This document shows positions 1,132-20,476 of a DNA stretch of 20,630 nt, piece after piece; the first letter of the stretch is position 1; each line of letters starts with the position of its first letter. Source of the stretch: a virus; IMG/VR virus record IMGVR_UViG_3300024348_000301, positions 1-20,630 of that record; one strand, given 5' to 3'. The notes beneath the pieces are model-generated. The model saw nothing but the letters and a program-made list of their open reading frames with translations, was not told where the DNA came from and did no database searches. The position numbers and the translations under genes were made by a program.

Positions 1132-1139
1132 TATTTATA
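1132..1139 (-). promoter_or_regulatory. T4-type late promoter for the sheath gene
   Basis: The minus strand reads TATAAATA, an exact match to the T4 late promoter -10 box read by the gp55/gp33/gp45 system. It lies 45 bp upstream of the gene 18 ATG. The TAA stop of the upstream Coq4-like gene (1135-1137) is embedded in the box, so one short sequence ends a gene and starts a transcript. Confidence 0.85.
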
Positions 1140-1839
1140 ACTTCAAAAAATTAGGGTATTTGTTTATGAAAACACGAGGCAAACGTATGTTTAATCGTTC
1201 CCTAGCAGAATCTAGATTTTCAGATAGTAGTTTATCATAATCTTCGGCTAATAGAAACTTAGCCTTTTTGCCATTTCGATAAGCTTCATACACCATTCGA
1301 AGCCGAGTAAAAGCTTCAGAAGGATGTCTTATTAAAAGCGTGAATAAGATACTTAAACTAATTACTAACCACGCAAGCGACCGGGTTTGTGCATAAGAAA
1401 ACATTATCATACACATTTCTCCTTCTGCAGTTGTAGGATAATTAGTTAAAATATGCCATATATCATGAGTATCGCGGTATCTTCTTGCCATCCAACTGTA
1501 AGGATGTTTAACTTCAATCCATTGATCAGCGGCGTTTTTTCTACTCATTGCTACAATAGCTAATCGATGGTGCTGAAAACAATCAGCAGCTGCTTTACCA
1601 ACAGATTTTTCAGGTCTATTCACAAGACCTGGCAAATATTCTGATATTTCTTCAGACTTATATGCCATCTCTCCGCCTGTTCGAGTTTCGAGCATCTTTT
1701 TATACGTATATTTTAAAGAAGGTCCACTGCCATGGCGTACTACTTGTAAAATAAAAATTAAGGCTTTCCCAGGATTATTCAGTGCATACTTCATAGGTTT
1801 AATTAATTTTCTGAGATTAAGTCCGTATTCATCTTTCAT
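1135..1839 (-). CDS. coq4: Coq4-family (ubiquinone biosynthesis) protein, phage-encoded
   Basis: The protein has 234 residues and resembles Coq4 along its length. The metal-site signature HDxxH(x)11E is complete: HDIWH at about residues 124-128, then ILTNYPTTAEG, then E. The preceding RYRDT and the following hydrophobic helices (MCMIMFSYAQTRSLAWLVISLSI) also fit the family, which is usually about 220-260 residues. Eukaryotic COQ4 organises the CoQ complex and is reported to support C1 oxidative decarboxylation of the quinone head group. I chose the ATG at 1837-1839, one base after the terminase stop and preceded by AAGGA (1850-1854). An in-frame TTG at 1857 lies inside gene 17. The position between 17 and 18 is unusual, because these are adjacent in T4. 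Whether the phage protein acts in quinone synthesis or has been repurposed cannot be read from sequence. Confidence 0.87.
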   Translation of the reverse strand: MKDEYGLNLRKLIKPMKYALNNPGKALIFILQVVRHGSGPSLKYTYKKMLETRTGGEMAYKSEEISEYLPGLVNRPEKSVGKAAADCFQHHRLAIVAMSRKNAADQWIEVKHPYSWMARRYRDTHDIWHILTNYPTTAEGEMCMIMFSYAQTRSLAWLVISLSILFTLLIRHPSEAFTRLRMVYEAYRNGKKAKFLLAEDYDKLLSENLDSARERLNIRLPRVFINKYPNFLKL

Positions 1840-1840
1840 A

Positions 1841-6283: not shown

Positions 6284-6835
6284 ATGAATTTAGACTTGAT
6301 GATTATTGATAACTTCTATATCAATCCCGACGCCGTGAGAGCTTTTGCTTTGACTCAAAACTTTGGCGTCATAGGTAACTATCCAGGAAAACGAACACCT
6401 TCATTTTTGACACAAGACGTCAAAGATTGCATTCAGCATTGGATGAATCCAGTCGGAAAGATTTCCAACTGGCACGAAGATTCAGGTTATACTGGCGCCT
6501 TTCAATACGCTACCGCTTCAGATCGAACGTGGATTCATTGCGATCATACGAGCATGTGGGCTGGTGTATGCTACTTGTCACCAGATGCTCCATATACCGC
6601 TGGCACTGCCATGTATCGGCACAAAGAAACGGGCGAATATCGAGCTCCAACGAACGAGCATGAGGCATACGACTATACCAAGTGGGATCGAATCGATGTT
6701 GTAGGCAACAAATACAATCGATTAATTCTCTACAGCGGAGATCTCTTTCATGCTAGCTTAGATTATTTCGGTAAAGATTTGTATGATGGCCGTCTGTTTC
6801 AGACATTCTTCTTTGACACGGAGCATGCACAATGA
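6284..6835 (+). CDS. Putative 2OG-Fe(II) oxygenase (DUF6445-like)
   Basis: A 183-residue protein with the metal-binding layout of 2-oxoglutarate/Fe(II) dioxygenases: H85-C-D87 in TWIHCDHTSMWAG, the distal H156 in YSGDLFHASLDYFG, and R170 in DGRLFQTFFF as candidate 2OG-binding arginine. The N-terminus (IIDNFYINPDAVRAFAL) and the sequence LILYSGDLFHASLDYFG resemble a family annotated as DUF6445 in marine phages and bacteria. Substrate unknown. It has its own late promoter, and its end overlaps the next gene (ATGA-type, 4 bases), so the two are probably co-translated. The enzyme-class call rests on residue pattern; the family name is from memory. Confidence 0.7.
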   Translation: MNLDLMIIDNFYINPDAVRAFALTQNFGVIGNYPGKRTPSFLTQDVKDCIQHWMNPVGKISNWHEDSGYTGAFQYATASDRTWIHCDHTSMWAGVCYLSPDAPYTAGTAMYRHKETGEYRAPTNEHEAYDYTKWDRIDVVGNKYNRLILYSGDLFHASLDYFGKDLYDGRLFQTFFFDTEHAQ

Positions 6836-7584
6836 AAGTTTGTAAGGTAATATGGTCGACCAATCGACTCGAGTATTTGATTCCTACACTCAAATCTCAG
6901 CGAGATATGTTAAACTTTGAAGGTTGCGAAGTCGAAGGCATCTTTTTCGACGATATGCCAAAAGGGCGGCATGACGGTACGATGTTCGAGCTAGCTAAGA
7001 ATTTTGGCTTTACTGAAATCTTCTTACATCAACAGAATATGGGTTTGCCATACGTATGGAATCGAACCTTCGAACTCCTGAGAGAACGAGATTATGATTA
7101 CGTGTATCTATCTGAAGATGATGTGACGTTCAACTGTCCGATTCGAATGCTCGACATGACTCAGATCTTACATGACTATCGTAACGTTTCTCAGGTATGC
7201 TTGACACGACAGAAATGGTATGACTTTGAAGAGGAAACACAAGCTTATGAAACAGACATTACACTTGGAAAATACCGTGGCGAGCTTTCTGAAGCATATT
7301 TTTGGAGTTTGGCAAGTGTTTTTCCGCGTGCCATAGTAGATCTTCCTCATGCCGAATCAGTAGGCGAGAAGAACTTGAGCGAGTATGTTGTAGCAAAATC
7401 ATTGCAGCAACTTGGTATGCAGACATGTAAGCTGAAGACCGAAGAAGGCCATAACATTGTAAATCATATCGGCGAATATAGCATCGGTAAACGAGCAGAA
7501 CCAGGAGATCCTCGCTACGAAGATTTTGCATCATATGATCCTGAAACAAAATACAGTTCAAAGCATGGAACGAAGTGGAGTTAA
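6832..7584 (+). CDS. GT-A-fold glycosyltransferase (GT2-like)
   Basis: The 250-residue protein begins KVCKVIWSTNRLEYLIPTLKSQ, the typical first strand and helix of a nucleotide-sugar transferase. It then has GIFFDD and an N-MGLPYVWNRTFELL helix. The acidic metal/nucleotide motif is YLSEDDV (E95-D96-D97), in the place of the usual DXD. A further ELSEAYFWSLASVF segment could belong to the acceptor side. The donor sugar cannot be inferred. It is flanked on both sides by 2OG oxygenase genes. Its C-terminus, SSKHGTKWS followed by TAA, is echoed at 8198-8227 just beyond the next gene, which suggests a lost paralogue or a recombination event. Confidence 0.75.
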   Translation: MKVCKVIWSTNRLEYLIPTLKSQRDMLNFEGCEVEGIFFDDMPKGRHDGTMFELAKNFGFTEIFLHQQNMGLPYVWNRTFELLRERDYDYVYLSEDDVTFNCPIRMLDMTQILHDYRNVSQVCLTRQKWYDFEEETQAYETDITLGKYRGELSEAYFWSLASVFPRAIVDLPHAESVGEKNLSEYVVAKSLQQLGMQTCKLKTEEGHNIVNHIGEYSIGKRAEPGDPRYEDFASYDPETKYSSKHGTKWS

Positions 7585-7587
7585 GTT

Positions 7588-8199
7588 ATGAACTTAGAAT
7601 TTTCAGAAATAAAACTTTACAATCCGGGGGTTCTTAAAACACGAATTCCAGCTTCTATTTTTGCTGATCTCACTCGAGACTTGCAAAAGCAAGTTGATAA
7701 TAAGCCGAAAAAATACAATGCTTTTTTAATAGGACAAATAGAAACAGAATTTCAGTACGTTATTAACGGACAATTTAGAGATTGTATAGAGCAAACGTAT
7801 CTCGAATATTCAAGAAAATTTAATTTTTATGAAAATCAAAATTATATCATTGATAATGACGCATGGGTCAATTTTCAAAAGAAACACGAATATAATCCAA
7901 TACATTTTCACCACAAAGCTATTTCATGGGTTACATGGATTACAATTCCTTATGATTTAGAAGAGGAATTAAATATGCCAAATGTAAGAGAAGCACATGT
8001 TAAATATGCATCAAAGTTTCAATTTATTTACAACTCATTCGATGGAGGAATTAGCACGACTCAACTAGATATTGATAAGACGTGGGAAGGTTCTCTTATT
8101 ATGTTTCCAAATTATCTCAAGCATCAGGTATATCCATTTCAAACCTCAAACGAATGCCGTATTTCTATTTCTGGTAATATCGATATTAGAAATCAATAG
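7588..8199 (+). CDS. Putative 2OG-Fe(II) oxygenase (2OG-FeII_Oxy_5-like)
   Basis: The 203-residue protein has the layout AWVNFQKKHEYNPIHFHHKAISWVTW followed by GSLIMFPNYLKHQVYPF and NECRISISGNI. This matches the small oxygenases common in marine T4-like phages (Pfam 2OG-FeII_Oxy_5). Candidate metal ligands are H106 and H108 (HFH instead of the more usual HxD) and H179, with R191 for 2-oxoglutarate. The replaced aspartate means hydroxylase activity is not certain. The gene is visibly more AT-rich than the glycosyltransferase gene before it (compare 7801-7860 with 7201-7260) and lies between the two copies of a coding repeat. It probably arrived separately. Confidence 0.68.
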   Translation: MNLEFSEIKLYNPGVLKTRIPASIFADLTRDLQKQVDNKPKKYNAFLIGQIETEFQYVINGQFRDCIEQTYLEYSRKFNFYENQNYIIDNDAWVNFQKKHEYNPIHFHHKAISWVTWITIPYDLEEELNMPNVREAHVKYASKFQFIYNSFDGGISTTQLDIDKTWEGSLIMFPNYLKHQVYPFQTSNECRISISGNIDIRNQ

Positions 8200-8227
8200 T
8201 TCAAAGCGCGGAACTAAATGGACTTGA
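8198..8227 (+). pseudogene. Relic of a glycosyltransferase C-terminus
   Basis: Read on the plus strand, this stretch encodes SSKRGTKWT plus stop. The end of the glycosyltransferase gene (7555-7584) encodes SSKHGTKWS plus stop. The two 30-base segments agree at 24 positions. Three of the six differences keep the amino acid or the stop (ACG/ACT, AAG/AAA, TAA/TGA), one is a conservative Ser/Thr change, and the other two fall in a single His/Arg codon. No start or upstream coding sequence remains. The relic lies in the convergent gene junction and also supplies, in antisense, the last codons of the 8214-8807 gene. It is most simply the tail of a vanished related gene. Confidence 0.6.
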
Positions 8228-8807
8228 GGCTACAGTCGTCCCAGAAATTAATCAACATACTCTTACGTGAGCCTCTTTTGACTTCGTTAATCCAATGATA
8301 GTATCGACTGCCTTCGAAGTATAAGACTGCCCCTTTGGTGGGCTGAAAAGATTCGTGCGTATATTTCAGCAACTCTTCTTTTAAAACTTCTGGCGGATTA
8401 AGTTCTCTTTCGTAATCTAACCAACTTCTTTCGGAAACACAAAATTCTCCGCCTTCAAGATCGATTGCTTCTAAGTAACATGATATGGTAATTGGAGACA
8501 TTAATTCTTTTGGTTGCAACTTTTCTCCAGCATTAATTCTATCTCGAAGTTTCTCATTAAAATCGACATGGGCCCACAAATCGCCGGAACCTTCTTGAGA
8601 CTGAAACCAATATTCGATGTGAGTTTTGTTACAACTAAACTGTTCTCGATCGAGAAACTCGAGTACAGCTTCATCTGTTGCGTTCGTAGGAAAGTTACGA
8701 TCAAAGTAATGTATTTGCGTAGGTCTGTTTAAACCTTCAAGCAATCGTAGTCGAAGATCTTCATCAAGAGTGGATCTACGGATAATCCTCGAGTTTCCAT
8801 GGTACAT
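8214..8807 (-). CDS. 2OG-Fe(II) oxygenase (prolyl-4-hydroxylase-like)
   Basis: A 197-residue dioxygenase, counted from the ATG at 8805-8807. It has AHVDFNE (H80, D82), then the double-stranded helix core ISCYLEA and LEGGEFCVSE, then YYHWINEVKRGSRKSMLINFW (H171, R181). This is a complete HxD...H...R set. The G-A-VLYFEGSRYYHW segment is typical of P4H-type enzymes. In-frame TTG codons up to 8825 lie deeper in the sulfotransferase gene and have no better ribosome binding site; the ATG start still overlaps that gene by 32 bases. It is the last gene of the long minus-strand operon and converges on the plus-strand island. Its final codons come from the antisense of the relic at 8198-8227. Substrate unknown. 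Confidence 0.78.
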   Translation of the reverse strand: MYHGNSRIIRRSTLDEDLRLRLLEGLNRPTQIHYFDRNFPTNATDEAVLEFLDREQFSCNKTHIEYWFQSQEGSGDLWAHVDFNEKLRDRINAGEKLQPKELMSPITISCYLEAIDLEGGEFCVSERSWLDYERELNPPEVLKEELLKYTHESFQPTKGAVLYFEGSRYYHWINEVKRGSRKSMLINFWDDCSLKSI

Positions 8808-9480
8808 TTTCAAATCTTTCAACAATATATTTAACTGCTGCTACATTCTTCGGAGATTTGCCAAAAGTTTTTAAGAAAGAGTTTGGCATTTTCTTAAAAG
8901 AGGAAGCTCCTGTTTTATTATCACATTCTGCTGGATGTCGAGAAATTTTCAACTCGTCGCATATCTTATCGATATTGGCTTGAGTAAAAAAATCCTCATA
9001 AAAGAAGTAGAGTGGATTTGCGAACACACTATCTAAAGCTTCGATAGTTTCTTTATATTTACATGATATGAAATTGCTCATGACAAATCGTGAAGCTAAC
9101 GACCGATTTGGAATTTTGCCACCTCCAAGCGTGTTCCATGCAGACCAACTTCTCCGAATAGGATCTCGCATAATATAAACTGGTACCACTTCGATATCGT
9201 ACTTCAATAAACCGGCTTTTATTAATCGAAAGACGTTCTCGCTCGATCCTTCATAGTGTGTAAAGTCGCCTGTAACTTGATTTATGCTTGAAACTGCACG
9301 AAAGAAAGATTCAATATCTTTTCTATATTCGCCTACATCTTCTAAGACAGGAACTAAATCATCTCTCTGAATGATATTGAGTTCTTTTCCCATATCATAG
9401 AAATCTGGGTGTTCTTTAAAATACTTATATAACCAAGTAGTGCCAGATTTCTCGGCTCCTACATTCAATAGAAACTTCAT
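8776..9480 (-). CDS. Sulfotransferase (PAPS-dependent, P-loop fold)
   Basis: The 234-residue protein opens FLLNVGAEKSGTTWLYKYF. KSGTTW (residues 11-16) is the 5'-phosphosulfate-binding loop. YIMRDPIRRSWSAW (102-115) is the 3'-phosphate-binding site, with R105 and S111 in the expected positions. Conserved Phe/Tyr segments follow, with YFFYEDFF as in Sulfotransfer family proteins. Such enzymes move sulfate from PAPS to hydroxyls of sugars, proteins or lipids. The start overlaps the preceding gene by four bases and the 3' end overlaps the following oxygenase gene. The acceptor is not predictable. Its neighbours (glycosyltransferase, hydroxylases, a second sulfotransferase) suggest a glycan or modified protein. 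Confidence 0.88.
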   Translation of the reverse strand: MKFLLNVGAEKSGTTWLYKYFKEHPDFYDMGKELNIIQRDDLVPVLEDVGEYRKDIESFFRAVSSINQVTGDFTHYEGSSENVFRLIKAGLLKYDIEVVPVYIMRDPIRRSWSAWNTLGGGKIPNRSLASRFVMSNFISCKYKETIEALDSVFANPLYFFYEDFFTQANIDKICDELKISRHPAECDNKTGASSFKKMPNSFLKTFGKSPKNVAAVKYIVERFENVPWKLEDYP

Positions 9481-10031
9481 AGATTTAATTGTATTAATAT
9501 ATTTCTAAAATTTGGTCCGAGAGTTGGAGATTCTACGTCTTCTAAGAGTTCATAGTTTCCAGCATTCGCACGACTTCGTAATGTTTTATGATAGATTGAA
9601 TTTGCAAGAATATTCCTATACAAATGTTTAGTTACACCAATTTGAATATTAAAATTATTTTTGGCTGTTACATTTTCTTGATTAAAAACATAATTTCTAG
9701 AACCGTTTTCATCTGGAGCAGTAAGTAAATGCCTACCATCGAGTGTACCATCTTCAAGTATAAACCCGCTTACAAATCCCAGATCTTTTCCAGTGTCAAG
9801 ATCGACGAATTTTGCCATCACATATCTATCATTTGGACCGTGAGGATTTAATCCTGGCCATTCATTATTTGCGCCGCTTTCAATGAGTGCAATCATTGCG
9901 GCTTTTCGTTCTGCGTCAGTCATTGTTGAACCTGCAGGCCAATTCGCATCAATTGCATCTTTTGATCTTTCATATAAGTCATCAAAATCTACTTCTGATA
10001 AATCATTTATGACAGTATAAACAATATTCAT
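9477..10031 (-). CDS. Protein of unknown function, possibly GNAT-like
   Basis: The 184-residue protein is not confidently recognised. The central part (RYVMAKFVDLDTGKDLGFVSGFILEDGTLDGRHLLTAP) has the alternating strand pattern of a GNAT acetyltransferase core, and GVTKHLYRNILAN could be its acetyl-CoA helix. However, I see no clear Q/R-x-x-G-x-G/A motif, so this is weak. The N-terminus is acidic and helical (SEVDFDDLYERSKDAIDANWP). There is no signal peptide or membrane segment. It sits in the operon between the desaturase and the sulfotransferase with 4-base overlaps on both sides, so it is surely expressed with them. Confidence 0.6.
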   Translation of the reverse strand: MNIVYTVINDLSEVDFDDLYERSKDAIDANWPAGSTMTDAERKAAMIALIESGANNEWPGLNPHGPNDRYVMAKFVDLDTGKDLGFVSGFILEDGTLDGRHLLTAPDENGSRNYVFNQENVTAKNNFNIQIGVTKHLYRNILANSIYHKTLRSRANAGNYELLEDVESPTLGPNFRNILIQLNL

Positions 10032-10753
10032 ATCTTAACTTTCTTTGTAGCTATTATATCTGTAATGGTATTTATCCAACCTTCTTTACTTGTATCAAAT
10101 AGTCGTTCGTGATGTTGTTTATGCATGTGCTCTCCACCACTAATAATTCCATACCAAAATCCCATATCTTTTGGTCCATTCATATCATGATTTAAAGATG
10201 CAATTCCTGTGGACCATATCGACAACGTAAGCGGAACAAAGTAAACAAACAAATACGTAGGAATAGATACGAGCAACAATAAGAATGGTAATAATAACAA
10301 AACCCAGTATTTTTCATGGAAAAAATTAGTGATTTTGTTACGTGTGAGTCTGACTATTGTTCTAAAATTTGCTCGTCCAATGTCATAGTTCCATAAAATA
10401 GGGAAAAGTATTTTCCAACCCTTCAGATGGTAAGGATGTGGATCTTTATCGGTGTCATGATGCGCATGATGATTGTCATGAGAAACGCAAAATTCAAGAG
10501 GAGAGGCAAGAGATCCATAAAATCCGAGGGCAGTGCATATGAATTCCATGATAGGATGCATAGTATGAGTGCGATGATTATGGATTCGATGATATGTAAT
10601 AGATCCGCCAATTACTCTCATCAGAAAGAACATCAATAGAGAAACAAGTATCCATAGAAAAGTTGCGTATTGAATGAGAGCCCACATTGCGATAAATGGA
10701 CTGATCAGTTGTGTTATTGTAAGTAAATATCTTCTATCAATTTTTGCGTCCAT
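10028..10753 (-). CDS. Membrane fatty-acid desaturase (acyl-lipid/acyl-CoA type)
   Basis: A 241-residue integral membrane di-iron enzyme with all three histidine clusters. Box 1 is HRIHNHRTH (residues 55-63), box 2 is HDNHHAHHDTDKDPH (92-106), and box 3 is GEHMHKQHH (207-215). Hydrophobic spans lie before box 1 and between boxes 2 and 3 (about 150-180), as in Delta-9-type desaturases, but the chain is shorter than the usual bacterial length of around 300. It would introduce a double bond in host membrane acyl chains using electrons from a host donor. Lipid desaturases are known auxiliary genes in cyanophages. The ATG at 10751-10753 is preferred to the in-frame TTG at 10765. The 5' end overlaps the small sulfotransferase-like gene. 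Confidence 0.9.
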   Translation of the reverse strand: MDAKIDRRYLLTITQLISPFIAMWALIQYATFLWILVSLLMFFLMRVIGGSITYHRIHNHRTHTMHPIMEFICTALGFYGSLASPLEFCVSHDNHHAHHDTDKDPHPYHLKGWKILFPILWNYDIGRANFRTIVRLTRNKITNFFHEKYWVLLLLPFLLLLVSIPTYLFVYFVPLTLSIWSTGIASLNHDMNGPKDMGFWYGIISGGEHMHKQHHERLFDTSKEGWINTITDIIATKKVKI

Positions 10754-11270
10754 AATACGAATCAATCTCTTTTATAATAGAATCTTTCCCAGGATAAGAA
10801 TCGAGTAGAGGCGTATTGGTATCTTCGATGCCGTAATACTCTTCGTACCATACAATTTCTTTTTGATATTTATTCAGATAAGCTGTTAATGCGCGATAAT
10901 CATTATACATTAAACCAATGTTTAAGCGAATAGCATTTGGCTTCAGTTCAGGATATACCTTTAACATATAGTTTGCTATACTCAGCGCTGCGTTTCTCAT
11001 ATTTTTTCGAAGCATAAAGACGCTTGCCTGATTAGCCAAGAGATATGAATGTTGATTTATGAGTACGATATGTTCACTATGATCTTGTAAAATTTCTGCA
11101 AACGAATCTTCTGTGAAGTTAGTTTGATAGCCAGTTTCATGAGTTTCAGATTTTCTATTATTTCCAATATGAATAGGGTGTATCTCTCCCACAAACTTTA
11201 GCTTTGTTTTTTCTTCAAGATCTAAGCAAAAGCGAGTAGCTCCACAACGTGGGAGAGAACAAACGATCAT
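10737..11270 (-). CDS. Small sulfotransferase-like P-loop protein
   Basis: The 177-residue protein starts MIVCSLPRCGATRFCLDLEE. PRCGATR resembles the PRSGTT phosphosulfate loop of sulfotransferases, but it has Cys for Ser and Ala for the first Thr. A later VFMLRKNMRNAALSIANYM segment sits where the RxxxRxxxS 3'-phosphate motif is expected (R, then R, then S). The lengths between these motifs are compatible with a minimal sulfotransferase of the type found in marine phages. The acceptor is unknown and the altered loop makes activity less certain than for the 8776-9480 enzyme. It overlaps the GT60-like gene by four bases upstream. Confidence 0.65.
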   Translation of the reverse strand: MIVCSLPRCGATRFCLDLEEKTKLKFVGEIHPIHIGNNRKSETHETGYQTNFTEDSFAEILQDHSEHIVLINQHSYLLANQASVFMLRKNMRNAALSIANYMLKVYPELKPNAIRLNIGLMYNDYRALTAYLNKYQKEIVWYEEYYGIEDTNTPLLDSYPGKDSIIKEIDSYYGRKN

Positions 11271-12289
11271 TCTTCATCTTCACTCATAAAAAGAGTTTTC
11301 GGCAATTTGACTTTTTTCTTTGGTTTCTTGGAAATAGCAAGAACGTCGACTTTTCCTGGAAGAACATCAAGACTATAAGTTCGAGCACGCTCTTCAATAT
11401 CGAGGTTAATAAAATCTACACCGAACTCTTGATGAAATTCAGAAAGAAGATCTTCTCTACACGCCTCGAGATAATGTTTCCATTGCCATCTCCCGATCTC
11501 TGCAAGTATTTCTCTTCTTCTTGCAGCCTTTTGATCTTCTGGAGGAGTTTTCGTATGCCAATTACTCGTGTTTTCGAGATGATATGAAACCATCTTACTA
11601 TGATGGAACATCTTATATCCAGCAGCATATGACATCATCGTCATCATGATTTCTTCTCCAACGAAGAAGATTTTTGGATCTAATCCGACATTGTCAATCC
11701 AATCGACGTGTGTAAAGAAGTTTCCTGCCATAATATGAAATGCTGGTCGTGGCATATCAGTTGAAGGAATATTATCTCCGTGTACATCTGGAATGAGAGT
11801 GTCAGGATCAATAGTATAATACTTGACTTGACAAGCATCATTTTCTTCATGACAAGGATAAGTTTTAATTTCTCCGTCTTTTTCTTGAATTACAAATGAT
11901 TTGCAAGATCCAGTGATGATGACTTTATTCGTCTCACACATATCCATGGCTCTCTTATAATCTTCGATCAGAGCACGATCCCAATTCATATCGTGTAACA
12001 TGTGTGAGTCGACTTGATAGATGAAGTCATACTCGTTTGTGATATTTAACATATTAATGTATCTTGCCCAAACACATCCATCAGAATATTCTGGATCGAT
12101 TCTTTTATAGATGACATCGTCTCGACTTACAAGTACCGGTTCTGTGCATGCCAAAGAATCTTCGTAACGAGTTTGTTCGAAGATTGAATAGACTACGTTA
12201 TTTCTATTTGACTTGGTTTGCAACATACTCTTGATGGTGTGTGGAAGCAGAGGATCTTGATACGAGCATACTGAAACAAAAATATTCAT
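11267..12289 (-). CDS. GlcNAc transferase, GT60-like (Skp1 GlcNAc-transferase family)
   Basis: The 340-residue glycosyltransferase begins IFVSVCSYQDPLLPHTIKSML, like 'IFVSIASYRDP' of the Pfam GlcNAc family. It then has GCVWARYINML, FIYQVDSHMLHDMNWDRALIEDY (D94-S95-H96 as the metal motif, W103-D104) and later NFFTHVDWIDNVGLDPKIFFVGEEIMMTMMSY and SYHLE. These blocks in this order define the family that includes Dictyostelium Gnt1, which transfers GlcNAc to hydroxyproline of Skp1. No signal peptide or membrane segment is visible, which fits a cytoplasmic enzyme. It lies in the same operon as a prolyl-hydroxylase-like oxygenase (13754-14347). The acceptor in this phage is not known. The C-terminus is lysine- then acid-rich. 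Confidence 0.8.
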   Translation of the reverse strand: MNIFVSVCSYQDPLLPHTIKSMLQTKSNRNNVVYSIFEQTRYEDSLACTEPVLVSRDDVIYKRIDPEYSDGCVWARYINMLNITNEYDFIYQVDSHMLHDMNWDRALIEDYKRAMDMCETNKVIITGSCKSFVIQEKDGEIKTYPCHEENDACQVKYYTIDPDTLIPDVHGDNIPSTDMPRPAFHIMAGNFFTHVDWIDNVGLDPKIFFVGEEIMMTMMSYAAGYKMFHHSKMVSYHLENTSNWHTKTPPEDQKAARRREILAEIGRWQWKHYLEACREDLLSEFHQEFGVDFINLDIEERARTYSLDVLPGKVDVLAISKKPKKKVKLPKTLFMSEDEE

Positions 12290-13026
12290 TGTTTAATCTC
12301 TTCTTTTTGCATATTAAATTTCTTTTTCATTCCCATAAACTTTCGATAGTATTGCTTATCATCTCCGGGAATTAGATTTGTAGTTTTATCTATCATTTCG
12401 TCTGTTGCTGGACCAACAGAAGCAGTAATATCTTTATTAAGGAAAGGAATCACGTGCAACAAAGGTTCTCCTGCTTTAATGTGAACGTTACATTCTCTCT
12501 TTGGCATACAGATGAAGTTTGTCACATGAAAGTTTTTATAATCTACCAAACCTGGAGTCACATATAAATCATCAAGAAAGGTAGAATGATAGAATGCCGG
12601 CATTAATAGCGCGCTAATATTTTTTTGAGTAAAAATTTTCCAAGGAGATGGAAATAAGATTGCTGCAGGATCGATTCCAACTGGTGTAAATGCTCCTTCA
12701 ATAAACTTTTCATCCATCTTCACTCCGTTATCAAACCCACGGTCTCCTCTCACTCCTCGGTCACCGAGATACCACGAAGTGCCGGCTTTGTTTGCCATAA
12801 TATGAATATCTACCCAGGCAGGAATAATATATCCGAATTGAGCATAGTCTAAAATTCCTGGACAAAATGGCATCAAATGTTTACCATACTTATCTTGCTG
12901 AACTTTACGAGTGTTTGTTGGAACATCAATTGCTCGTTCAACAGAAAAGTTATGATAAGATAACTTTTTAGTATCTACGAATTGAATATCTTTTTTTGGT
13001 TTTAAAAAGGAAAATAAGTCTTTCAT
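12286..13026 (-). CDS. Protein of unknown function, paralogue of its upstream neighbour (DUF6065-like)
   Basis: The 246-residue protein is clearly related to the product of 13023-13760. Both share a K-x(n)-C-P-x(n)-D...GYIIP...D block early on, a later PSPWK or NPWIV segment, a MPAF or APIN beta strand, GLVDY or GLVDT, and a C-terminal P..I.AG.PL...IP. The pattern is beta-rich with no membrane segment or signal. I think it corresponds to the DUF6065 group of marine phage and bacterial proteins, but this is from memory. It is translationally coupled to both neighbours by 4-base overlaps, directly ahead of the GT60-like enzyme. Function unknown. Confidence 0.7.
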   Translation of the reverse strand: MKDLFSFLKPKKDIQFVDTKKLSYHNFSVERAIDVPTNTRKVQQDKYGKHLMPFCPGILDYAQFGYIIPAWVDIHIMANKAGTSWYLGDRGVRGDRGFDNGVKMDEKFIEGAFTPVGIDPAAILFPSPWKIFTQKNISALLMPAFYHSTFLDDLYVTPGLVDYKNFHVTNFICMPKRECNVHIKAGEPLLHVIPFLNKDITASVGPATDEMIDKTTNLIPGDDKQYYRKFMGMKKKFNMQKEEIKQ

Positions 13027-13760
13027 TTTCTCGGCACTCTTAATTCTTTGGTATATACACTTCTTCGAGTATTTTGCATTTTTGATATCATATTAATTAA
13101 ACGGAGTTCATCTTCTTTCATATTCCTAATAGTAGGCTTCGATGGAACAGCATCGCGCTTAATTGGAATGGCAATTACTAGCGGCGTACCAGCAAGTAAA
13201 AGCACGTCGGCATTTGGAGTGTGCCAGATTGCCGGGAAATTTACTTCTTTTGGATATGTATCTGTATCAACTAATCCTGACAGACATGTAAAATGGCTTT
13301 CAAAGTTATTAATCGGTGCTATAAAAAGAGTCGACCAACCTGGAGCAGTTCTTACAATCCATGGATTGACAAACTTGAGAGGAGGTGCAGGAAATCCAGG
13401 AGCAGATCTTTCTCCAAGTTGTCGAATGTCATGAAACTCACATACGTTGATCTGTGGAGAAGACGTGACTTCAATTGTACTGCAGTCGTGATTTGATCTG
13501 ACGGTGAGATCACCGATAAGTGGAATGACATATCCGAGTGACATGGCGTCAATCATTGGCATGCATTTTTTTGCAGTAAAGCTATGCGATCCAGTCCAGT
13601 CACGATCATCTCTTCCATCAGTAATCAACGGTGGAATCTTCTTATACCATTCTGGCATATATTTTCCCGCGGGTTTTGGCTGAGGCAATACTTCGACATC
13701 ATCTCGATGACAATAAAACTCAATGATAGGTTTTTTCTTAAAAGGATTCCAACTTAACAT
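13023..13760 (-). CDS. Protein of unknown function, paralogue of its downstream neighbour (DUF6065-like)
   Basis: The 245-residue protein has an N-terminal IEFYCHRDDVEVLPQPKPAGKYMPEWYKKIPP segment, suited to a start-of-domain beta hairpin, then AKKCMPMIDAMSLGYVIPLIGDLTV. NPWIVRTAPGWSTLFIAPIN, SGLVDTDTYP and LLAGTPLVIAIPI follow. The same blocks occur in the 12286-13026 product, so the two arose by duplication but are now strongly diverged. It overlaps the hydroxylase gene by seven bases upstream. The position between a prolyl-hydroxylase-like enzyme and a GlcNAc transferase suggests a part in the same pathway, but nothing in the sequence shows catalysis. Confidence 0.72.
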   Translation of the reverse strand: MLSWNPFKKKPIIEFYCHRDDVEVLPQPKPAGKYMPEWYKKIPPLITDGRDDRDWTGSHSFTAKKCMPMIDAMSLGYVIPLIGDLTVRSNHDCSTIEVTSSPQINVCEFHDIRQLGERSAPGFPAPPLKFVNPWIVRTAPGWSTLFIAPINNFESHFTCLSGLVDTDTYPKEVNFPAIWHTPNADVLLLAGTPLVIAIPIKRDAVPSKPTIRNMKEDELRLINMISKMQNTRRSVYTKELRVPRK

Positions 13761-14347
13761 TCTCTTTCACCCATTACCCATGCTACAAGACTTTTACGTA
13801 AACCAGAAGTGACCGGCACTACGCGATGTGGCATCCACGAAGCAAAAAATACAACGTCACCTTTATTTGGTTTAAACGAGATTTTTTCTTCAAGATTTCC
13901 ATTATTAATAATCTCTAACTCGCCGCCTTCATATTCATTCGGATCTGAGAGAAGTAATGATGCCGATATCTTTCTTATATATTTTTGCCAACCAAATTCG
14001 ACGTCCCAATGCCAAGTATAGTGTTGATCAGGACCATATTTAGAATACTGAAAAGCTTCGACGCCTTCAATGTTGTACATAAAATGGTCACCGTTGACTA
14101 TTGATATTATTCCAGACATTCTCTGAAATAACCAATCGCTATGTTGGTCGTGATGTATCCATGAGATATCTGAGTCGCGAGTTTCGACTGGAGCCGGAGA
14201 ATTTGAATCTTGTCCAATTCTACCTTTTTCGAATTCTTGAAGCTTTTCGATGTCAATAATTTTATCGACTTCTTCGGGAGTAAATCCTCCTGTCCACACA
14301 GAAAAGCAGTTCAATTGTTTCCCATACTTAGGGATAGTATATGCCAT
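13754..14347 (-). CDS. 2OG-Fe(II) oxygenase, prolyl-4-hydroxylase/PKHD type
   Basis: The 197-residue enzyme has a full catalytic set: HYTWHWDVEFGW (H113, D115), FFASWMPHRVVPVT (H174) and SGLRKSLVAWVMG (R184 for 2-oxoglutarate). The core strand SASLLLSDPNEYEGGELEI is typical of prolyl-4-hydroxylase and PKHD (YbiX/PiuC-like) hydroxylases, where EGGEL precedes the distal half of the jelly roll. The length fits. The ATG follows GAGGATTT at a good ribosome-binding distance. It begins 21 bases after the Pro-rich repeat protein gene ends, on the same strand, and heads the modification operon. A protein substrate with exposed prolines is attractive but unproven. Confidence 0.85.
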   Translation of the reverse strand: MAYTIPKYGKQLNCFSVWTGGFTPEEVDKIIDIEKLQEFEKGRIGQDSNSPAPVETRDSDISWIHHDQHSDWLFQRMSGIISIVNGDHFMYNIEGVEAFQYSKYGPDQHYTWHWDVEFGWQKYIRKISASLLLSDPNEYEGGELEIINNGNLEEKISFKPNKGDVVFFASWMPHRVVPVTSGLRKSLVAWVMGEREC

Positions 14348-14368
14348 AGTAAATCCTCATCAAGTCAC

Positions 14369-15901
14369 TTATTCAATGGTAATATCTATATATCCTCCAG
14401 GCGCTACAGTTACCGAATGTGAAGCGCCATCTGGAAAATCATAGTAGCTTGCCCTCTGATTATTTATCACTGGTGCAGGCGTACCGCCGGCATTTGATCC
14501 AGGGAAAGTAATACCGAGCGCATTTGCTGCATTTCCTGGAACCGCCGGAGTTGGAGCATTAAAGTTCTGAGGACCGTTGGTTGCAGGATTAAAGTTTTGA
14601 GGACCATTTGTAGGTGCATTAAAATTCTGCGGCCCATTTGTAGGTGCGTTGAAGTTTTGCGGTCCGGCAGTTGGAGCATTAAAGTTTTGCGGTCCGGCAG
14701 TTGGAGCATTAAAGTTTTGCGGGCCATTCGTTGGAGCATTAAAATTCTGCGGCCCGTTAGTAGGCGCATTGAAGTTTTGAGGACCATTTGTAGGCGCATT
14801 AAAATTCTGCGGCCCATTTGTAGGTGCATTGAAGTTTTGTGGCCCGTTAGTAGGTGCATTGAAGTTTTGTGGCCCGTTAGTAGGTGCATTAAAATTCTGC
14901 GGCCCATTTGTAGGTGCATTGAAGTTTTGTGGGCCATTCGTTGGTGCGTTGAAGTTTTGTGGGCCATTTGAAGGCGCATTGAAGTTTTGTGGGCCATTTG
15001 AAGGCGCATTGAAGTTTTGAGGGCCATTTGAAGGCGCATTGAAGTTTTGAGGGCCATTTGAAGGCGCATTGAAGTTTTGAGGACCAGGAGATGGAGGCCC
15101 TGGTGCATTATAAAAAGCCGGGGTATATCCAAATTTTGGTGATATAAATGCATTCGTTGCTTTGTTACCTGGAGTACCTGGAGTCGCGTTGTATGTACCA
15201 GTGCCAGTTCCTGCAACAACGTTAAAGCCAGCACCAGTTCCTGCAACAACGTTAAAGCCAGCACCAGTTCCTGCAACAACGTTAAAGCCAGCACCAGTTC
15301 CTGCAACAACGTTAAAGCCAGCGCCAGTTCCTGCAACTTTATTGAATGTACCGGTACCAGTTCCTGCAACTTTATTGAATGTACCGGTACCAGTTCCTGC
15401 AACAATATTGAATGTGCTTCCAGTACCAGGAACAATATTAAATGTGCTTCCAGTACCAGGAACTTTATTGAATGTACCGGTACCGGTTCCTGCAACAATA
15501 TTAAAGTTAGCTCCAGGGCCAGGAACAATATTAAATGTGCTTCCAGTACCAGGAACTTTATTGAATGTACCGGTACCGGTTCCTGCAACAATATTAAATG
15601 TACCTGTGCCAGTTCCTGCAACAATATTAAATGTGCTTCCAGTTCCAGGAACAATATTAAAGGTAGCTCCAGGTCCAGGAATTACGTTGAATGTTCCTGT
15701 TGCATTTCCGGCGACAATATTAAAGTTAGCTCCAGGGCCAGGAATTAATGCGGTTCCAGTACCACCTTGTCCTGAAACAAGAATACTATTCCTACCATAA
15801 GGAATCGCGATATTTCCTGGACTGTTAAACTTCGTCGTACCGACGCCGCTTGCTCTCCAGGTTTTTTCGAGTGTAAATTTAGAACCGCCACCAATACCCA
15901 T
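14369..15901 (-). CDS. Repetitive virion surface protein with two tandem repeat domains
   Basis: The 510-residue protein has a short N-terminal domain (GGSKFTLEKTWRASGVGTTKF, then YGRNSILVSGQGG) seen in structural proteins of marine cyanophage-like myoviruses. Two tandem repeat domains follow. The first has about 18 units of 10-11 residues of the form V-P/A-G-T-G-(S/TG)-T-F-N-I/K. The second has 18 units of the decapeptide GPQNFNAPTN. A Pro/Gly hinge separates them, and a small C-terminal beta domain ends in VTVAPGGYIDITIE. Both repeat types have FN at a fixed place and are compatible with a thin fibre or beta-solenoid. It begins three bases after the stop of the upstream appendage gene. Receptor binding or virion decoration is likely but inferred. 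Confidence 0.78.
   Translation of the reverse strand: MGIGGGSKFTLEKTWRASGVGTTKFNSPGNIAIPYGRNSILVSGQGGTGTALIPGPGANFNIVAGNATGTFNVIPGPGATFNIVPGTGSTFNIVAGTGTGTFNIVAGTGTGTFNKVPGTGSTFNIVPGPGANFNIVAGTGTGTFNKVPGTGSTFNIVPGTGSTFNIVAGTGTGTFNKVAGTGTGTFNKVAGTGAGFNVVAGTGAGFNVVAGTGAGFNVVAGTGAGFNVVAGTGTGTYNATPGTPGNKATNAFISPKFGYTPAFYNAPGPPSPGPQNFNAPSNGPQNFNAPSNGPQNFNAPSNGPQNFNAPSNGPQNFNAPTNGPQNFNAPTNGPQNFNAPTNGPQNFNAPTNGPQNFNAPTNGPQNFNAPTNGPQNFNAPTNGPQNFNAPTNGPQNFNAPTAGPQNFNAPTAGPQNFNAPTNGPQNFNAPTNGPQNFNPATNGPQNFNAPTPAVPGNAANALGITFPGSNAGGTPAPVINNQRASYYDFPDGASHSVTVAPGGYIDITIE
14549..15085 (-). repeat. 18-copy in-frame 30-bp tandem array (decapeptide GPQNFNAPT/SN)
   Basis: Eighteen 30-bp units encode GPQNFNAP followed by SN (4 copies), TN (8), TA (2), TN (2), an AP-to-PA swapped unit and a final TPA. 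Adjacent units are often identical in DNA, for example the four APSN units at the 5' end of the array, while others differ only at third positions. This indicates repeated local duplication under amino-acid constraint. Confidence 0.95.
15188..15750 (-). repeat. About 18-copy in-frame 30/33-bp tandem array (xVxGTGxTFN)
   Basis: Units alternate between 30 bp (VPGTGSTFN, IPGPGANFN or VAGTGAGFN) and 33 bp (VAGTGTGTFN plus one residue). Four near-identical VAGTGAGFN units at 15210-15330 show a recent expansion. The reading frame is preserved in every unit. On the opposite strand the same periodicity leaves long open frames that I do not regard as genes. Confidence 0.92.
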
Positions 15902-15904
15902 ATC

Positions 15905-17671
15905 TTAGCTCGCATTCTTCACTGACAACGAAACAATGTAAGTATTGCCTGCGTCATACGTCATAATCGACCAGATATCGACAGCATTTGCAGTGGTTGT
16001 CGCAGGAGGCGAGACAGCACCCGCGTATTTAGTACCTGTTGGCCATGTGATCGTACGTCCACCTGTAGCATCTTGTTTGGCTACAAGTGTAGCAGAAACC
16101 ATTCTTGTATTCGCTGGAACTCCGGATGGTGAGATTGTCGTGTTTCCAGTAAGTATTAGATCGAAGAAGTTTGCAGTCGAAAAGTCTAGTGTAAATGTAC
16201 CAGTCACTGCCGCGTTTGACACTTCGTGTTCAGAGTAACCTGCTAGCACCGGGCGAGTAATAAAATTGTTCGCCATTACAACGTTGGCAGCGTGAGTAGT
16301 AATGCCTCCTACTTGTAAAGTGGTCGATACGTTTGCAAAGCCAGTTGATGTAATGCCCGTTGAGTTGGCAATGAAGCTAGAACCGACAGTATGCGAAGCA
16401 GCATTGACTGCGCCTTGAAATAAACCACCAGTAAGACTTATTGTTCCAGTAGAATCATTTAGGGTTCCGTTGCCGATAGACAATATTGCCCCTGACGAAC
16501 GAGAAATACCAGCATCATTATTGAATTTTAACACTCCCCCGGCGGCGATATTAATTGAGCCTGTTGTGTCAATTGAATTGGCGGACAAAACAAACCTAGA
16601 AGTGGTATTACCTAATGTCTGCCCTGATGAGTTTGATGTAGGAACAATTGCAGTAGCGTTAATTGTGACGCCGGTAGTAGTAAATGAAGCAGCGTTTACA
16701 GTGCCTGTATGATAGGCACCTGTTGTGTTTGCAATGAATGAAGTGCCGACAGTTAACAATGCTGAGTTGACTGAAACTGAAGCATTAGCAAAACCAGTAA
16801 TCGTTGTGTTACCGGCAGCAAGAGTTGTGACGCCTGATAAAGCTCCACCAAGCGTAAGAGAACTTAAAGTACCAACGGAGGTAAGAGACGATGCAAGAAT
16901 TCCAGTACCTAAAGCTGTAGAGTTAGCAATAGTAGTAGTACCGATCTTATAAACTTTACCGGCCGCAAGATCGATATGTTCGGAAGCGGTCCAGCTGTCA
17001 GTTGCATCAACCCAGTTAAATGTCTTATCGGTAGCACCTTTCAGAGTAATACCGCCGCCATCGGCAGTGACATCACTTGGAGTAGTCACATCACCAAGTA
17101 TAATATTTTTATCTTCTACAAGAAGATTTGTAGAATTTATATTCGTTGTTGTACCATTGATAGTGAGGTTACCAGAAACGGTAATATCACCAGTAATCGT
17201 AGTATTACCGGCAGCGAGTGTCGTAACACCAGAAGCTGCGCCTGCTAACGTAAGAGATGTGATTGATAAGGCTGAGTTCACATGAATGCCGGCAGTATTC
17301 ACAGTGAGTGTCGAACCGGTCGTTACACCGAGTGTACCTGTCGTGGTAATTGTTCCACCAGAAAGACCATTACCAGTTGCGACAGATGTGACTGTTCCTC
17401 CGGCATTGTCATCAGCTGCCCAGTATATCGAAGTACCATTTGAGTGTAATACTTGACCGGCAGTACCGATACCACCGTTCGCTTCAAGTCCGACTGCCGT
17501 ACCGATAGCCACTTTGCTCGTGTTGGCAACAAAGCTAGAACCTACAGTGAGTGAAGCTGAGTTGACGCTGGTGCTGACATTCGCAAAACCAGTAATAGTT
17601 GTATTACCGCCTGCTATTGTAGTGCCTACATTCAGACCTGATTTAACGCGAAAGTTATTTGGTGTAGCCAT
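15905..17671 (-). CDS. Tail fibre or other virion appendage protein with Ser/Thr/Asn-rich repeats
   Basis: The 588-residue protein begins MATPNNFRVKSGLNVGTT and consists of recurring short beta units: [42 protein letters not shown]. One segment reads [26 protein letters not shown] and an SILYWAAD-like YWAADDN segment precedes it; both are common in phage tail fibre and structural proteins. The C-terminal about 110 residues (VSNAAVTGTFTLDFSTANFFDLILTGNTTIS to YDAGNTYIVSLSVKNAS) form a separate beta domain of the type found at the tip of marine phage fibres. Segments are shared with the next fibre gene upstream. A late promoter lies 34 bp before the ATG. The virion location is inferred. Confidence 0.8.
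   Translation of the reverse strand: MATPNNFRVKSGLNVGTTIAGGNTTITGFANVSTSVNSASLTVGSSFVANTSKVAIGTAVGLEANGGIGTAGQVLHSNGTSIYWAADDNAGGTVTSVATGNGLSGGTITTTGTLGVTTGSTLTVNTAGIHVNSALSITSLTLAGAASGVTTLAAGNTTITGDITVSGNLTINGTTTNINSTNLLVEDKNIILGDVTTPSDVTADGGGITLKGATDKTFNWVDATDSWTASEHIDLAAGKVYKIGTTTIANSTALGTGILASSLTSVGTLSSLTLGGALSGVTTLAAGNTTITGFANASVSVNSALLTVGTSFIANTTGAYHTGTVNAASFTTTGVTINATAIVPTSNSSGQTLGNTTSRFVLSANSIDTTGSINIAAGGVLKFNNDAGISRSSGAILSIGNGTLNDSTGTISLTGGLFQGAVNAASHTVGSSFIANSTGITSTGFANVSTTLQVGGITTHAANVVMANNFITRPVLAGYSEHEVSNAAVTGTFTLDFSTANFFDLILTGNTTISPSGVPANTRMVSATLVAKQDATGGRTITWPTGTKYAGAVSPPATTTANAVDIWSIMTYDAGNTYIVSLSVKNAS
16335..16410 (-). repeat. Segment shared with the collagen-like fibre gene (other copy 18199-18274)
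   Basis: This 76-base segment and 18199-18274 differ at about five positions and share an identical core of 35 bases. Both are in frame and encode A-N[16 protein letters not shown] units. Such identity at DNA level in otherwise diverged genes points to recent exchange or duplication between the two fibre genes. Confidence 0.85.
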
Positions 17672-17741: not shown

Positions 17742-20426
17742 TTAAATTGACTGTCTGATTACTTTGACTGTTTGTGTTACTGATCCATTTGCAGAAGTTG
17801 ATGTAAAATAGATTTCTACGTTAGCGTTGTTGATGCCCGCGTCGAACGAACCTAGAGAGGTATTAAATAATTGAGCATATTCTGTAATAAGAACGTCGGT
17901 GTTGTCATGTAGTAGTAAGATTTCTGATGTGTGTCTTTCAGTACCAGACGATGGCTTAACTGTTAGAATAAGTTTTCCAAAGCTGTAGTTAGCTTTAGGG
18001 AACGAATCTATAATATTCTGGGTTGTATTAGATACTGTAGCTGTGTTACTGAAGATAGCAGCGTTATCTAAGATAAGCGCTTTAGCAGATACGTTAGCCC
18101 CAGCTGAAACATTGCCAGTAAGCGTTGTTATGCCGGATACCACTAAGTTGCCGGTAATGCTTGAATTACCACTTACGGCAAGAGTAGTACTAATATTAGC
18201 AAAGCCTGTTGATGTAATGCCTGTTGAGTTGGCAATGAAGCTAGAACCGACAGTATGTGAAGCGGCATTCACTGTTCCTGTATGGAATGCACCGAGAGTG
18301 TTGGCAATAAAACTTGTACCGACAGTTAGAAGCGCAGAGTTAACTGATACTGAAGCATTAGCAAAACCAGTGATCGTAGTATTACCAGCCGCAAGAGTTG
18401 TAATGCCCGAAGCTGCTCCAGCAATAGTCAGCGACGAACCACCTTGGATAGTTGTAGTTACGTTAGCAAAACCGGTGATGGTGGTATTACCGACTGCGAA
18501 TGCTCCGTTATAAGTAAGCGCGCCTGCGCCAGTTCTACCAAGTTTTGTCGTTGTGTCTGCGTTACCAAATATAATAAAACCATTATTGGCAGATTGTTGA
18601 CCGCGAATAGATACTGTATCAGCTGTGTTGACGTCTCCAAACCAAGCATCGTCACCGATTGAAATATTAGTACCTGATCCGTTATTACTCGTCAGTAATC
18701 TATCAATCGATAGTGCCGAGTTAACGTGAATACCGGTCGTATTGACTGTGAGTGTTGGCCCAGCAGTTACTCCGATTGTACCACTAGTTGTAATCGTTCC
18801 ACCAGAAAGACCATTGGCTGTCGCGACAGAAGTTACGCCTCCGCCGGTAGCACCTTGAGCGCCTTGTGCACCAGTAACACCTTGAGCGCCTTGAAGTCCT
18901 TGAGTACCTTGCGCTCCTTGAGCACCAGTAGTACCTTGAGCACCTTGCGCGCCAGTATCACCTTGAGCGCCTTGAGCACCTTGGGCACCTTGAGCGCCAG
19001 TAACGCCTTGAGCTCCAGTTGCACCAGTAATTCCTTGCGCGCCAGTATTACCAGTTGCTCCTTGAGCACCAGTTGCACCTTGGGCACCCTGAGCACCCGT
19101 GTCTCCGAGATCACCTGTTCTTGCAAACGTAATAATAATATCTTCAAGGTTTGTAAACGATGATGCAGAACCACTCACATAAGCACAATTAACTGTGAAC
19201 CAACCAGTATTATCTGTCAATGCTGAAATTGTAAACAACGCAAAGTCAGAAGCATCAAGCCGATTAGAGATTCTAAAGTGGCCTTTAATTGTGCTTGTAG
19301 AATCGTCGATGGTGTTTAGAAATGATTGAATATTAGTAGCTGCATCATTTGATGCATCAATATACATCGCGCTTGCTAAAGTAACGTCGGCATTATTAAA
19401 TCTTATCTTACCAGTACCAGGATCAGCTGCGCTTGTGCTTGTATCAAATGTATAATCGAACGTAGCACCGCCAAAGTTACCATCATTGCCTTGAGCGCCT
19501 TGGGATCCAGTAACACCTTGAGCACCAGTTGCGCCTTGGGCACCAGTATTGCCTTGAGCACCAGTAGCACCTTGAGCACCAGTATCGCCTTGAGCACCTT
19601 GAAGTCCTTGAGTACCTTGAGCTCCAGTAGCTCCTTGAGCGCCAGTAGCACCTTGAACGCCTTGAGCTCCAGTTACACCTTGAGCACCTTGAAGTCCTTG
19701 AGCACCTTGAGCTCCAGTAGCTCCTTGCGCACCTTGAGCACCAGTAGCTCCTTGCGCACCTTGAGCACCAGTAACACCTTGTGGACCAGCAACCGATGAA
19801 GCTGCACCTTGAGCACCGGTTGTACCTTGAGCACCTTGAGCTCCAGTTGCACCTTGTGCACCAGTAGAGCCTTGAGCACCAGTTACACCTTGAGCACCGA
19901 GGGTGACGAATGCATTTAAAGTTGTAACTTGGACAACATCACCAGCAATCGCATTCGATGTGAGTGTGAGAACGGTGGTATTTGTTGTGTTATAGTCAAC
20001 TCCGGCAATTTGACGAGAGCCATTAATAAAGACGTTTTCAAGTCCGGCAGTATATATGAATGTGTTTGATGTATCGTCAGTGCCCGTAAACACCGTCGTA
20101 TTCGATGCCACAGTAAACGTGTAGGTATTCATGGTGGCAGCATTTGCTTCGCCGCCTGCACCCCAATAAACGCCTGTTCCATTTGATGAAAGAACTTGGC
20201 CGCCGGATCCAGACGATCCGTTAGCTACAATCGTAACAACAGCGAGAGAAGAGAGATTTGAACCGACTTCGAAGATGGCATTGGCAGCATCTGAAGAGAA
20301 GACTTTACGATCAGTTAGATTAACCGCAAATTCGCCGTTATCAATAAAACCAGAATTTGCTACGTCAGTAGTATTAGCTGTACGACCAGAAATTGTCGTG
20401 CGCTTAAATTGAAATTTGTTTGCCAT
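17742..20426 (-). CDS. Collagen-like tail fibre/appendage protein
   Basis: The 894-residue protein, counted from the ATG at 20424-20426, is preferred to the TTG at 20432 because GAGG stands at the right distance before the ATG. The N-terminal domain ([21 protein letters not shown], then [14 protein letters not shown]) is typical of marine phage fibres. Next come a beta domain, a Gly-X-Y collagen-like block, a roughly 115-residue globular domain ([24 protein letters not shown] to [15 protein letters not shown]), a second collagen-like block, repeated ITGFAN/SSFIAN beta units, and a C-terminal beta domain. GAQ, GAT and GVT triplets dominate; Pro is almost absent. A trimeric fibre is the usual form of such proteins. 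A late promoter lies 51 bp upstream. Confidence 0.87.
18199..18274 (-). repeat. Segment shared with the neighbouring appendage gene (other copy 16335-16410)
   Basis: This is the counterpart of the 76-base segment at 16335-16410. The identical core includes GTTGAGTTGGCAATGAAGCT on the plus strand. It lies in the ITSTGFAN / VGSSFIAN repeat part of the collagen-like fibre gene. Confidence 0.85.
18842..19115 (-). repeat. Collagen-like Gly-X-Y block 2
   Basis: An almost unbroken Gly at every third residue runs from [10 protein letters not shown] to GATGGG, mainly as GAQ, GAT, GVT, GIT and GLQ triplets. The DNA is a degenerate 9-bp tandem pattern (TTGAGCACC and variants on the plus strand). Confidence 0.93.
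19479..19898 (-). repeat. Collagen-like Gly-X-Y block 1
   Basis: The run of Gly-X-Y triplets goes from [10 protein letters not shown] to GNDGN, interrupted once by an AASSVA spacer after GAQGAASS. X is mostly Ala and Y is Gln or Thr. Only one GPQ triplet occurs, so stability must come from means other than hydroxyproline in the Y position. Confidence 0.93.
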
Positions 20427-20476
20427 TCTCAACCTCTATATAGAGCAACGAAGCGGTTATGTAACCCCTAATATTC

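Follow-up and report, generated by a model that had tools for sequence, protein, structure and literature searches.

The locus described here raises the question of what a long tandem-repeat protein encoded among phage tail-fibre genes does, and whether the enzyme genes beside it act on it. The window (the whole analysed stretch of 20,630 bases, virus record IMGVR_UViG_3300024348_000301) carries long open reading frames mostly on the minus strand, in the gene order T4-type tail sheath, terminase large subunit, neck and sheath-stabiliser genes, followed by cargo genes and a tail-fibre cluster. The terminase large subunit matched that of cyanophage S-IOM18 at 57%, and the window is a fragment of a T4-like phage. 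We found that the repeat gene belongs to a conserved cassette, consisting of a capped repeat gene, a 2OG-Fe(II) oxygenase, DUF6065 protein a, DUF6065-like protein b and a PF11397/GT60 glycosyltransferase, and this cassette is our main result. The arrays, which an earlier note on this DNA had singled out, are real and moderately interesting; the cassette next door is the stronger finding.

Other genes of the window were also recorded. A Coq4-like protein (positions 1135-1857, minus strand; PF05019, E 7.7e-17), without a PHROG match, is encoded between the terminase and tail sheath genes; Coq4 is a ubiquinone-biosynthesis family. Positions 6284-11270 hold small cargo genes, including DUF6445, two more 2OG oxygenase-like genes, a sulfotransferase-like gene, a glycosyltransferase-like gene and a desaturase-like gene that was recognised by eye.

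Two arrays sharing one frame in a capped protein

The repeat gene (14369..15901, minus strand) is an open reading frame of 510 residues with relatives in 42 IMG/VR loci, and both tandem arrays lie within it, as the earlier note had claimed. The N-terminal cap (about residues 1-51; 15749..15901; KFTLEKTW...IPYGRN...GGTGTA) was delimited by the invariant columns of a 14-row alignment, which also defined the C-terminal cap (14372..14545; TPAVPGN...YYDFPDGASHSVTVAPGGYIDITIE); each cap is about 50-60 residues long, and both were kept across the 14 aligned sequences. Between them, on the same strand, tandem repeat finding (TRF), spacing and unit comparison delimited array 1 (15161..15730; 17 units of 10 or 11 residues, [FY]N-[IVK]-V-[PA]-G-x..., such as FNIVPGTGST or FNIVAGTGTGT) and array 2 (14546..15085; 18 decapeptides like GPQNFNAPTN, with 18 [FY]N). 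TRF reported a 30-bp unit in 17.9 copies at 14549-15085 and in 14.2 copies at 15189-15634, together with higher-order periods of 93, 126 and 219 bp, the last extending to 15744. The fixed FN position proposed in that note was confirmed in the wider form [FY]N: the protein contains 38 such pairs, separated by 37 spacings, of which 34 measure exactly 10 or 11 residues; when its residues were shuffled 2000 times, such spacings numbered 0.21 on average and never more than 3.

The description of near-identical units beside variant ones was also right, since adjacent DNA units were more alike than shuffled order gives, both in array 1 (likeness 0.86, P = 0.014, 8 equal-length adjacent pairs) and in array 2 (likeness 0.84, P = 0.002, 16 pairs). 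The 17 whole units of array 2 comprise 13 distinct DNA sequences encoding only 4 distinct peptides, and because so many DNA forms encode so few peptides while neighbours are most alike, these units appear to be old, with their peptides held by selection and with local duplication. That the two arrays are unrelated, as had been supposed, is doubtful. They have the [FY]N frame and the period in common, and their usage of F and Y correlates (rho 0.76, P = 0.006; 11 sequences, kinship not removed, two further sequences without a GPxN array being left out), so the arrays are probably kin, by common origin or by concerted change.

In 23 of the 30 lineages listed, over half the units carried a proline no more than 4 residues after [FY]N; in array 1 of the window it followed [FY]N in 6 of 17 units, with alanine in the other 11 where others carry proline. 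The N-glycosylation sequon was considered as the cause of the [FY]N frame. N-x-S/T at [FY]N made up only 0-0.25 of the units in all lineages listed except L132 (0.94) and L209 (0.50), and the sequon therefore does not explain the frame.

Several known repeat classes were compared with the protein. Collagen-like phage tail fibres (PF01391) likewise have long repeats within the tail-fibre cluster, but a collagen-like identity was rejected, as the [FY]N spacing is 10/11, a G-X-Y period is absent and Pfam reported no collagen match for the protein. Caulobacter phage RW gp016, annotated as 'pentapeptide repeat family protein', matched weakly over array 2 (31% identity), and no cassette gene is annotated beside it; a pentapeptide-repeat identity was rejected because the window protein had no such Pfam match at E up to 1, a range in which the HMMER filters drop most matches above about 0.1. 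The profile of PHROG 22415, a family of unknown function, matched array 2 (residues 278-459, E 2e-14), a score of the kind that repeats inflate.

A predicted fold for the repeat protein

Structure prediction, suggested in the earlier note as a check, was run with AlphaFold2 on the 14-row alignment, and the resulting weak model (mean pLDDT 57.5, pTM 0.36) was not one of disorder only: array 2 was modelled with a strand every 10 residues, in a beta-solenoid-like arrangement, at pLDDT 60-79 over residues 301-430. Foldseek with this model against BFVD and PDB gave nothing with an E of 0.001 or below. In VIA both arrays aligned with beta-helical proteins, among them the SufB-SufC-SufD complex (Z up to 11.0) and the Sf6 tailspike (Z up to 9.2); these matches were rejected as kinship and reflect only a common beta-helical arrangement. 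The models suggest, at low confidence, that the arrays are likely to form a beta-solenoid. Because three weak VIA rows (Z 2.6-3.3) aligned residues of both protein ends together, the two end caps perhaps form one small beta-domain.

The arrays might instead be a flexible, mostly disordered spacer that parts the caps, with the [FY]N frame as a folding or solubility constraint. The pLDDT of array 1 (mostly 44-53) and the composition of the protein, in which G, N, P, T and A together make up 69%, would agree with a spacer, whereas the regular strands modelled in array 2, the fixed spacing and the aromatic position argue for ordered packing. We consider such a spacer highly improbable.

Array length differs between lineages

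The earlier note had further proposed that the arrays evolve rapidly and that fibre length can change without frameshift. Length variation of this kind was found between lineages, the full-length array-rich relatives ranging from 394 to 685 residues with 26-57 [FY]N, all in frame. The protein of L022 has 394 residues against 510 in the window, a difference of 116 residues; long DNA blocks beside and beyond the gene are 89-92% identical between the two, one 1.7-kb fibre block is 86.5% identical and about 3 kb is unaligned. The rapid evolution was not borne out. Within one group of 18 near-identical contigs, 17 showed no change in array length (11 span the whole gene and 6 contain part of it, identical throughout), and length change is therefore rare on that scale. 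The remaining contig, L035, is short of 60 + 30 bp relative to its group and the same at 2500/2500 bases downstream. Seven of the 18 contigs end inside the repeat gene, which is above chance (P = 0.006, with contigs treated as independent, although L030 and L031, among the seven, look like the same assembly); short-read assembly therefore appears strained at this gene, and the L035 deletion may be an artefact of it. Copy number, whose invariance across strains the note had set against its own proposal, showed no change in 17 of the 18 near-identical contigs, over the part of the gene each contains, and differs in L035 and between lineages. On these comparisons the proposal appears partly supported: the arrays vary in length between lineages, and no rapid change was seen among near-identical contigs.

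One reading of these data is that array length itself sets fibre function and is altered by slippage or recombination, the neighbouring enzymes being irrelevant. It would account for the different lengths between lineages, for the likeness of adjacent units and for L035, which departs from its own group by the two short gaps only; the contigs that end inside the gene could be copy-number mixtures, or plain repeat-breaking. Against it stand the 17 contigs without length change and the array 2 peptides, which are kept despite synonymous divergence, and we regard this explanation as improbable.

Enzymes of the cassette

The oxygenase gene (13754..14347, minus strand; PKHD-like) matched PF13640 (E 1.3e-17; 65 bits against a cut-off of 27). 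Its nearest PDB entries by sequence were PKHD-type hydroxylases, PiuC first (E 2e-6), followed by 5c5t, 'Prolyl 4-hydroxylase' (E 0.002), which we take to be the prolyl 4-hydroxylase of PBCV-1. H113xD115, H174 and R184 were invariant in 11/11 alignment rows; by position and family knowledge, H113, D115 and H174 are presumably the iron ligands and R184 the 2-oxoglutarate residue, so that the catalytic residues are as expected. Judged by profile and residues, the protein is a 2OG-Fe(II) oxygenase of the prolyl-hydroxylase type, with peptidyl-proline hydroxylation as its putative activity.

The glycosyltransferase gene (11267..12289, minus strand) matched PF11397 (GlcNAc; GT60 type) at E 3.3e-24 and 86.4 bits against a cut-off of 21, over stretches 2-50 and 94-273 of 352, and none of 14 control genomes matched this profile. 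A sequence search of PDB gave nothing believable (best E 0.96), and Xanthomonas phage XacN1 was the one entry in 50,697 deposited phage records to match at E 1e-5 (25%). The profile match places the enzyme in the PF11397/GT60 family, with GlcNAc transfer to hydroxyproline as a putative activity; PF11397 enzymes may have other acceptors. The first sugar enzyme of the Skp1 pathway, a GlcNAc transferase, is presumably the founder of this family.

Between these two genes lie DUF6065 protein a (13023..13760, minus strand; PF19541, E 6e-13) and its paralogue, DUF6065-like protein b (12286..13026, minus strand), which was recognised by alignment and by phrog_7084 (E 1.3e-19), a family common to both, and which had no Pfam match. 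The model of protein a alone (pLDDT 76) matched dUTPases in Foldseek (E 4.8e-4, prob 1.00) and in VIA (Z 10.2, rmsd 3.5 over 120 residues), and its predicted fold is dUTPase-like.

Conservation of the cassette

With the array protein as bait, the IMG/VR scan gave 42 loci, 18 of which are the near-identical group, and all five genes were present in order in 39 of the 42. The exceptions were L075, whose contig ends inside the array, and L076 and L077, which lack GT60 and encode a 215-residue, array-poor relative. The GT60 bait gave 59 loci, and DUF6065b was directly upstream in 19 of the 22 examined; the other 37 loci, like L128 and L129 among the 22, belong to contigs that the array bait had found before. 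The three loci without DUF6065b upstream (L134-L136) were distant matches (26-27% identical). These three show two GT60-like genes in tandem, 26-28% identical to the window GT60, and no cassette.

Among the best 80 of 337 loci found with the oxygenase bait, all 26 lineages (at 90%) had a capped protein nearby together with DUF6065a, and GT60 was present in 21. About 1.4 kb separated the capped gene from the oxygenase in 3 of the 26 lineages, and 0.6-0.7 kb separated the oxygenase from DUF6065a in another 3. DUF6065a relatives above 250 bits were pooled from all scans (275 loci, including the best 80 of 104 from the DUF6065a scan), and in all 34 lineages found a capped protein or its C-terminal end lay upstream. 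Of these lineages, 30 were capped by the N-cap profile and L224 and L266 by eye, while in L222 and L293 the C-terminal end of the capped protein was recognised by eye at a contig break. The cassette was re-ordered yet clustered in L192 and L208, where GT60 precedes the capped gene and has a second oxygenase-like gene as its neighbour, and DUF6065b was not found in L209 and L220. Three weak matches of the capped-protein scan (L337-L339) were dropped, since the N-cap profile did not match them and neither DUF6065 nor GT60 exceeded the display threshold there.

Further arrangements were noted in the same scans. L193, L205, L327 and L331 carry two capped repeat genes in tandem ahead of the oxygenase. 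L047 (about 13630-14985) and its sister contigs of the L005 group carry, on the opposite strand, a further copy of the oxygenase and of DUF6065a (39-40% identical). The 4.4-kb contig L340 (DOMR01000007.1), which is assigned to a Chitinophagaceae MAG, holds all four genes of the enzyme side together with the C-terminal part of a capped gene; it could be a weak pointer to the host or simply a stray contig from a phage.

The enzymes could also be host-takeover or auxiliary metabolic genes whose targets are host molecules or virion proteins other than the repeat protein, with the fibre locus as a hot spot for cargo. More oxygenase-, sulfotransferase- and glycosyltransferase-like genes do lie nearby, and the enzyme families range beyond the cassette: oxygenase relatives occurred in 274 of the 50,697 deposited phage records, mostly cyanophages, where the N-cap had no credible match (one at E 1 was not believed); DUF6065 relatives occur in a few cyanophages and in numerous tailed viruses of haloarchaea (HF1, HF2), and the three halovirus or cyanophage regions examined held them without the rest of the cassette; and L346, a deposited marine record with an oxygenase relative, had no other cassette gene within the 12.6 kb covered. 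In array-type viruses, however, other cargo turns over while the capped gene, the oxygenase and DUF6065 remain near each other. We consider the cargo explanation unlikely, and a functional link between the cassette and the array protein probable.

GT60 presence and array richness

Capped proteins contained 8-79 [FY]N in lineages with GT60 (n = 20) and 2-12 in those without GT60 in the cassette (n = 10), a significant difference when kinship is ignored (Mann-Whitney, P = 1e-5). The ten lineages without GT60 comprise eight found by profile, L224 and L266; with the eight alone, P = 4e-5. The classes overlap, since L231 has GT60 and only 8 [FY]N, and protein length is confounded with [FY]N number. 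L266, with 12 [FY]N, was counted as without GT60; its contig (159,688 bases) carries a PF11397 gene at 111564-112415, about 34 kb from the cassette. In 14 of 15 contigs (11-184 kb) of lineages without GT60, which may be incomplete, the PF11397 profile found no match anywhere on the contig. The [FY]N counts of lineages with two capped genes (L193, L205) are sums. Left out of the comparison were the lineage of L327 and L331 (951 bp downstream, with a truncated GT60 match at the contig edge), L234 (2057 bp downstream), and L293 (GT60 present) and L222 (no GT60), in both of which the capped gene is incomplete.

On the DUF6065a tree about 5 changes of GT60 were counted, and well-supported branches offered no more than 2 independent pairs; in these the [FY]N class, cut at 12 after the counts had been seen, moved the same way in 1.7 of 2 on average and never the opposite way. 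After kinship is taken into account the link between GT60 and arrays is not significant, the independent changes being too few. Proline content was not supported as the driver of GT60 presence, as the array regions contain 14-31% proline without GT60 and 3.9-20.2% with it.

A proposed hydroxylation and glycosylation of the repeat protein

The place of the repeat protein on the virion is suggested by gene order. Directly upstream lies a gene for a tail-fibre-like protein of 588 residues (15905..17671, minus strand; PHROG tail-fibre matches), and two genes upstream a collagen-like tail fibre (17742..20432, minus strand; PF01391, E 1.6e-31), which also has a T4 gp9/10 C-terminal match in Pfam, below cut-off. 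By BLAST, 25 of 29 lineages have a relative of the 588-residue fibre gene immediately ahead of the capped gene, with the likeness in the C-terminal 100-odd residues in most rows, and this neighbour points to a tail-fibre partner. The array protein contains 63 prolines (12.3%), compared with 9 and 5 in the upstream fibre neighbours (15905..17671 and 17742..20432, respectively).

We propose, with a probability of about 0.5, that the repeat protein is associated with the tail fibre and is hydroxylated and glycosylated by its own cassette; the substrate, the residue, the sugar and the virion location are inferred. The protein would present two long [FY]N arrays between its end caps. The 2OG-Fe(II) oxygenase would hydroxylate many array residues, proline most likely and asparagine possibly, and the PF11397/GT60 enzyme would then put a sugar on the array, probably onto the hydroxyl, while the two dUTPase-like DUF6065 proteins would assist the modification. 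As units are duplicated and lost during evolution, the count of decorated units would change. Asparagine or some other residue could be modified instead of proline, because proline content does not separate the GT60 classes and L213 and L217 are proline-poor (3.9-5.7% in the array region).

A broader form of this proposal is that tailed phages have a complete protein hydroxylation-glycosylation pathway (oxygenase, GT60 and dUTPase-fold helpers) dedicated to one repeat fibre, that array length sets the sugar number, and that the system is a phage counterpart of the hydroxyproline-rich glycoproteins; we hold this tentatively, as doubtful but possible. Extensin-type hydroxyproline-rich glycoproteins likewise consist of proline-rich tandem repeats, but belong to the plant cell wall, unlike the phage protein. 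An extensin identity was rejected, as Pfam Extensin_1, the better of two weak Pfam matches, reached 17.1 bits against a cut-off of 105. To our knowledge, the route of hydroxylation followed by sugar transfer is known only from eukaryotes.

Two known systems resemble parts of the cassette. PBCV-1 encodes a prolyl-hydroxylase, and the title of a 1999 study reports 4-hydroxyproline in viral proteins (cited in PMC9301287); according to the citing article, the use that viruses make of prolyl 4-hydroxylase 'remains cryptic'. The window oxygenase is likewise virus-encoded, but PBCV-1 is an algal virus, whereas the window enzyme is from a phage, is PKHD-like and is encoded alongside DUF6065 and GT60 in a conserved cassette. 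In Skp1 of Dictyostelium and Toxoplasma, according to PMC7864055, prolyl-hydroxylation is followed by glycosylation of the hydroxyproline. The Skp1 pathway resembles the proposed action of the cassette in having a 2OG hydroxylase and a subsequent sugar transfer, and presumably shares PF11397 membership with it; Skp1 is modified at one proline on one cytosolic eukaryotic protein, whereas here the putative target is a phage repeat protein. A literature search by title and the start of the abstract, largely outside subscription journals, returned no paper describing this cassette in a phage.

The conserved cassette offers the phage oxygenase a concrete and testable substrate in its fixed partner protein, and gives DUF6065 a predicted fold and a genomic context. 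If the proposal is true, it bears on the origin of cytosolic hydroxyproline glycosylation, and phages of this kind would sugar-coat their fibre, with a bearing on receptor binding and virion protection. Some water-dwelling phages may thus hydroxylate and sugar-coat their own surface fibre.
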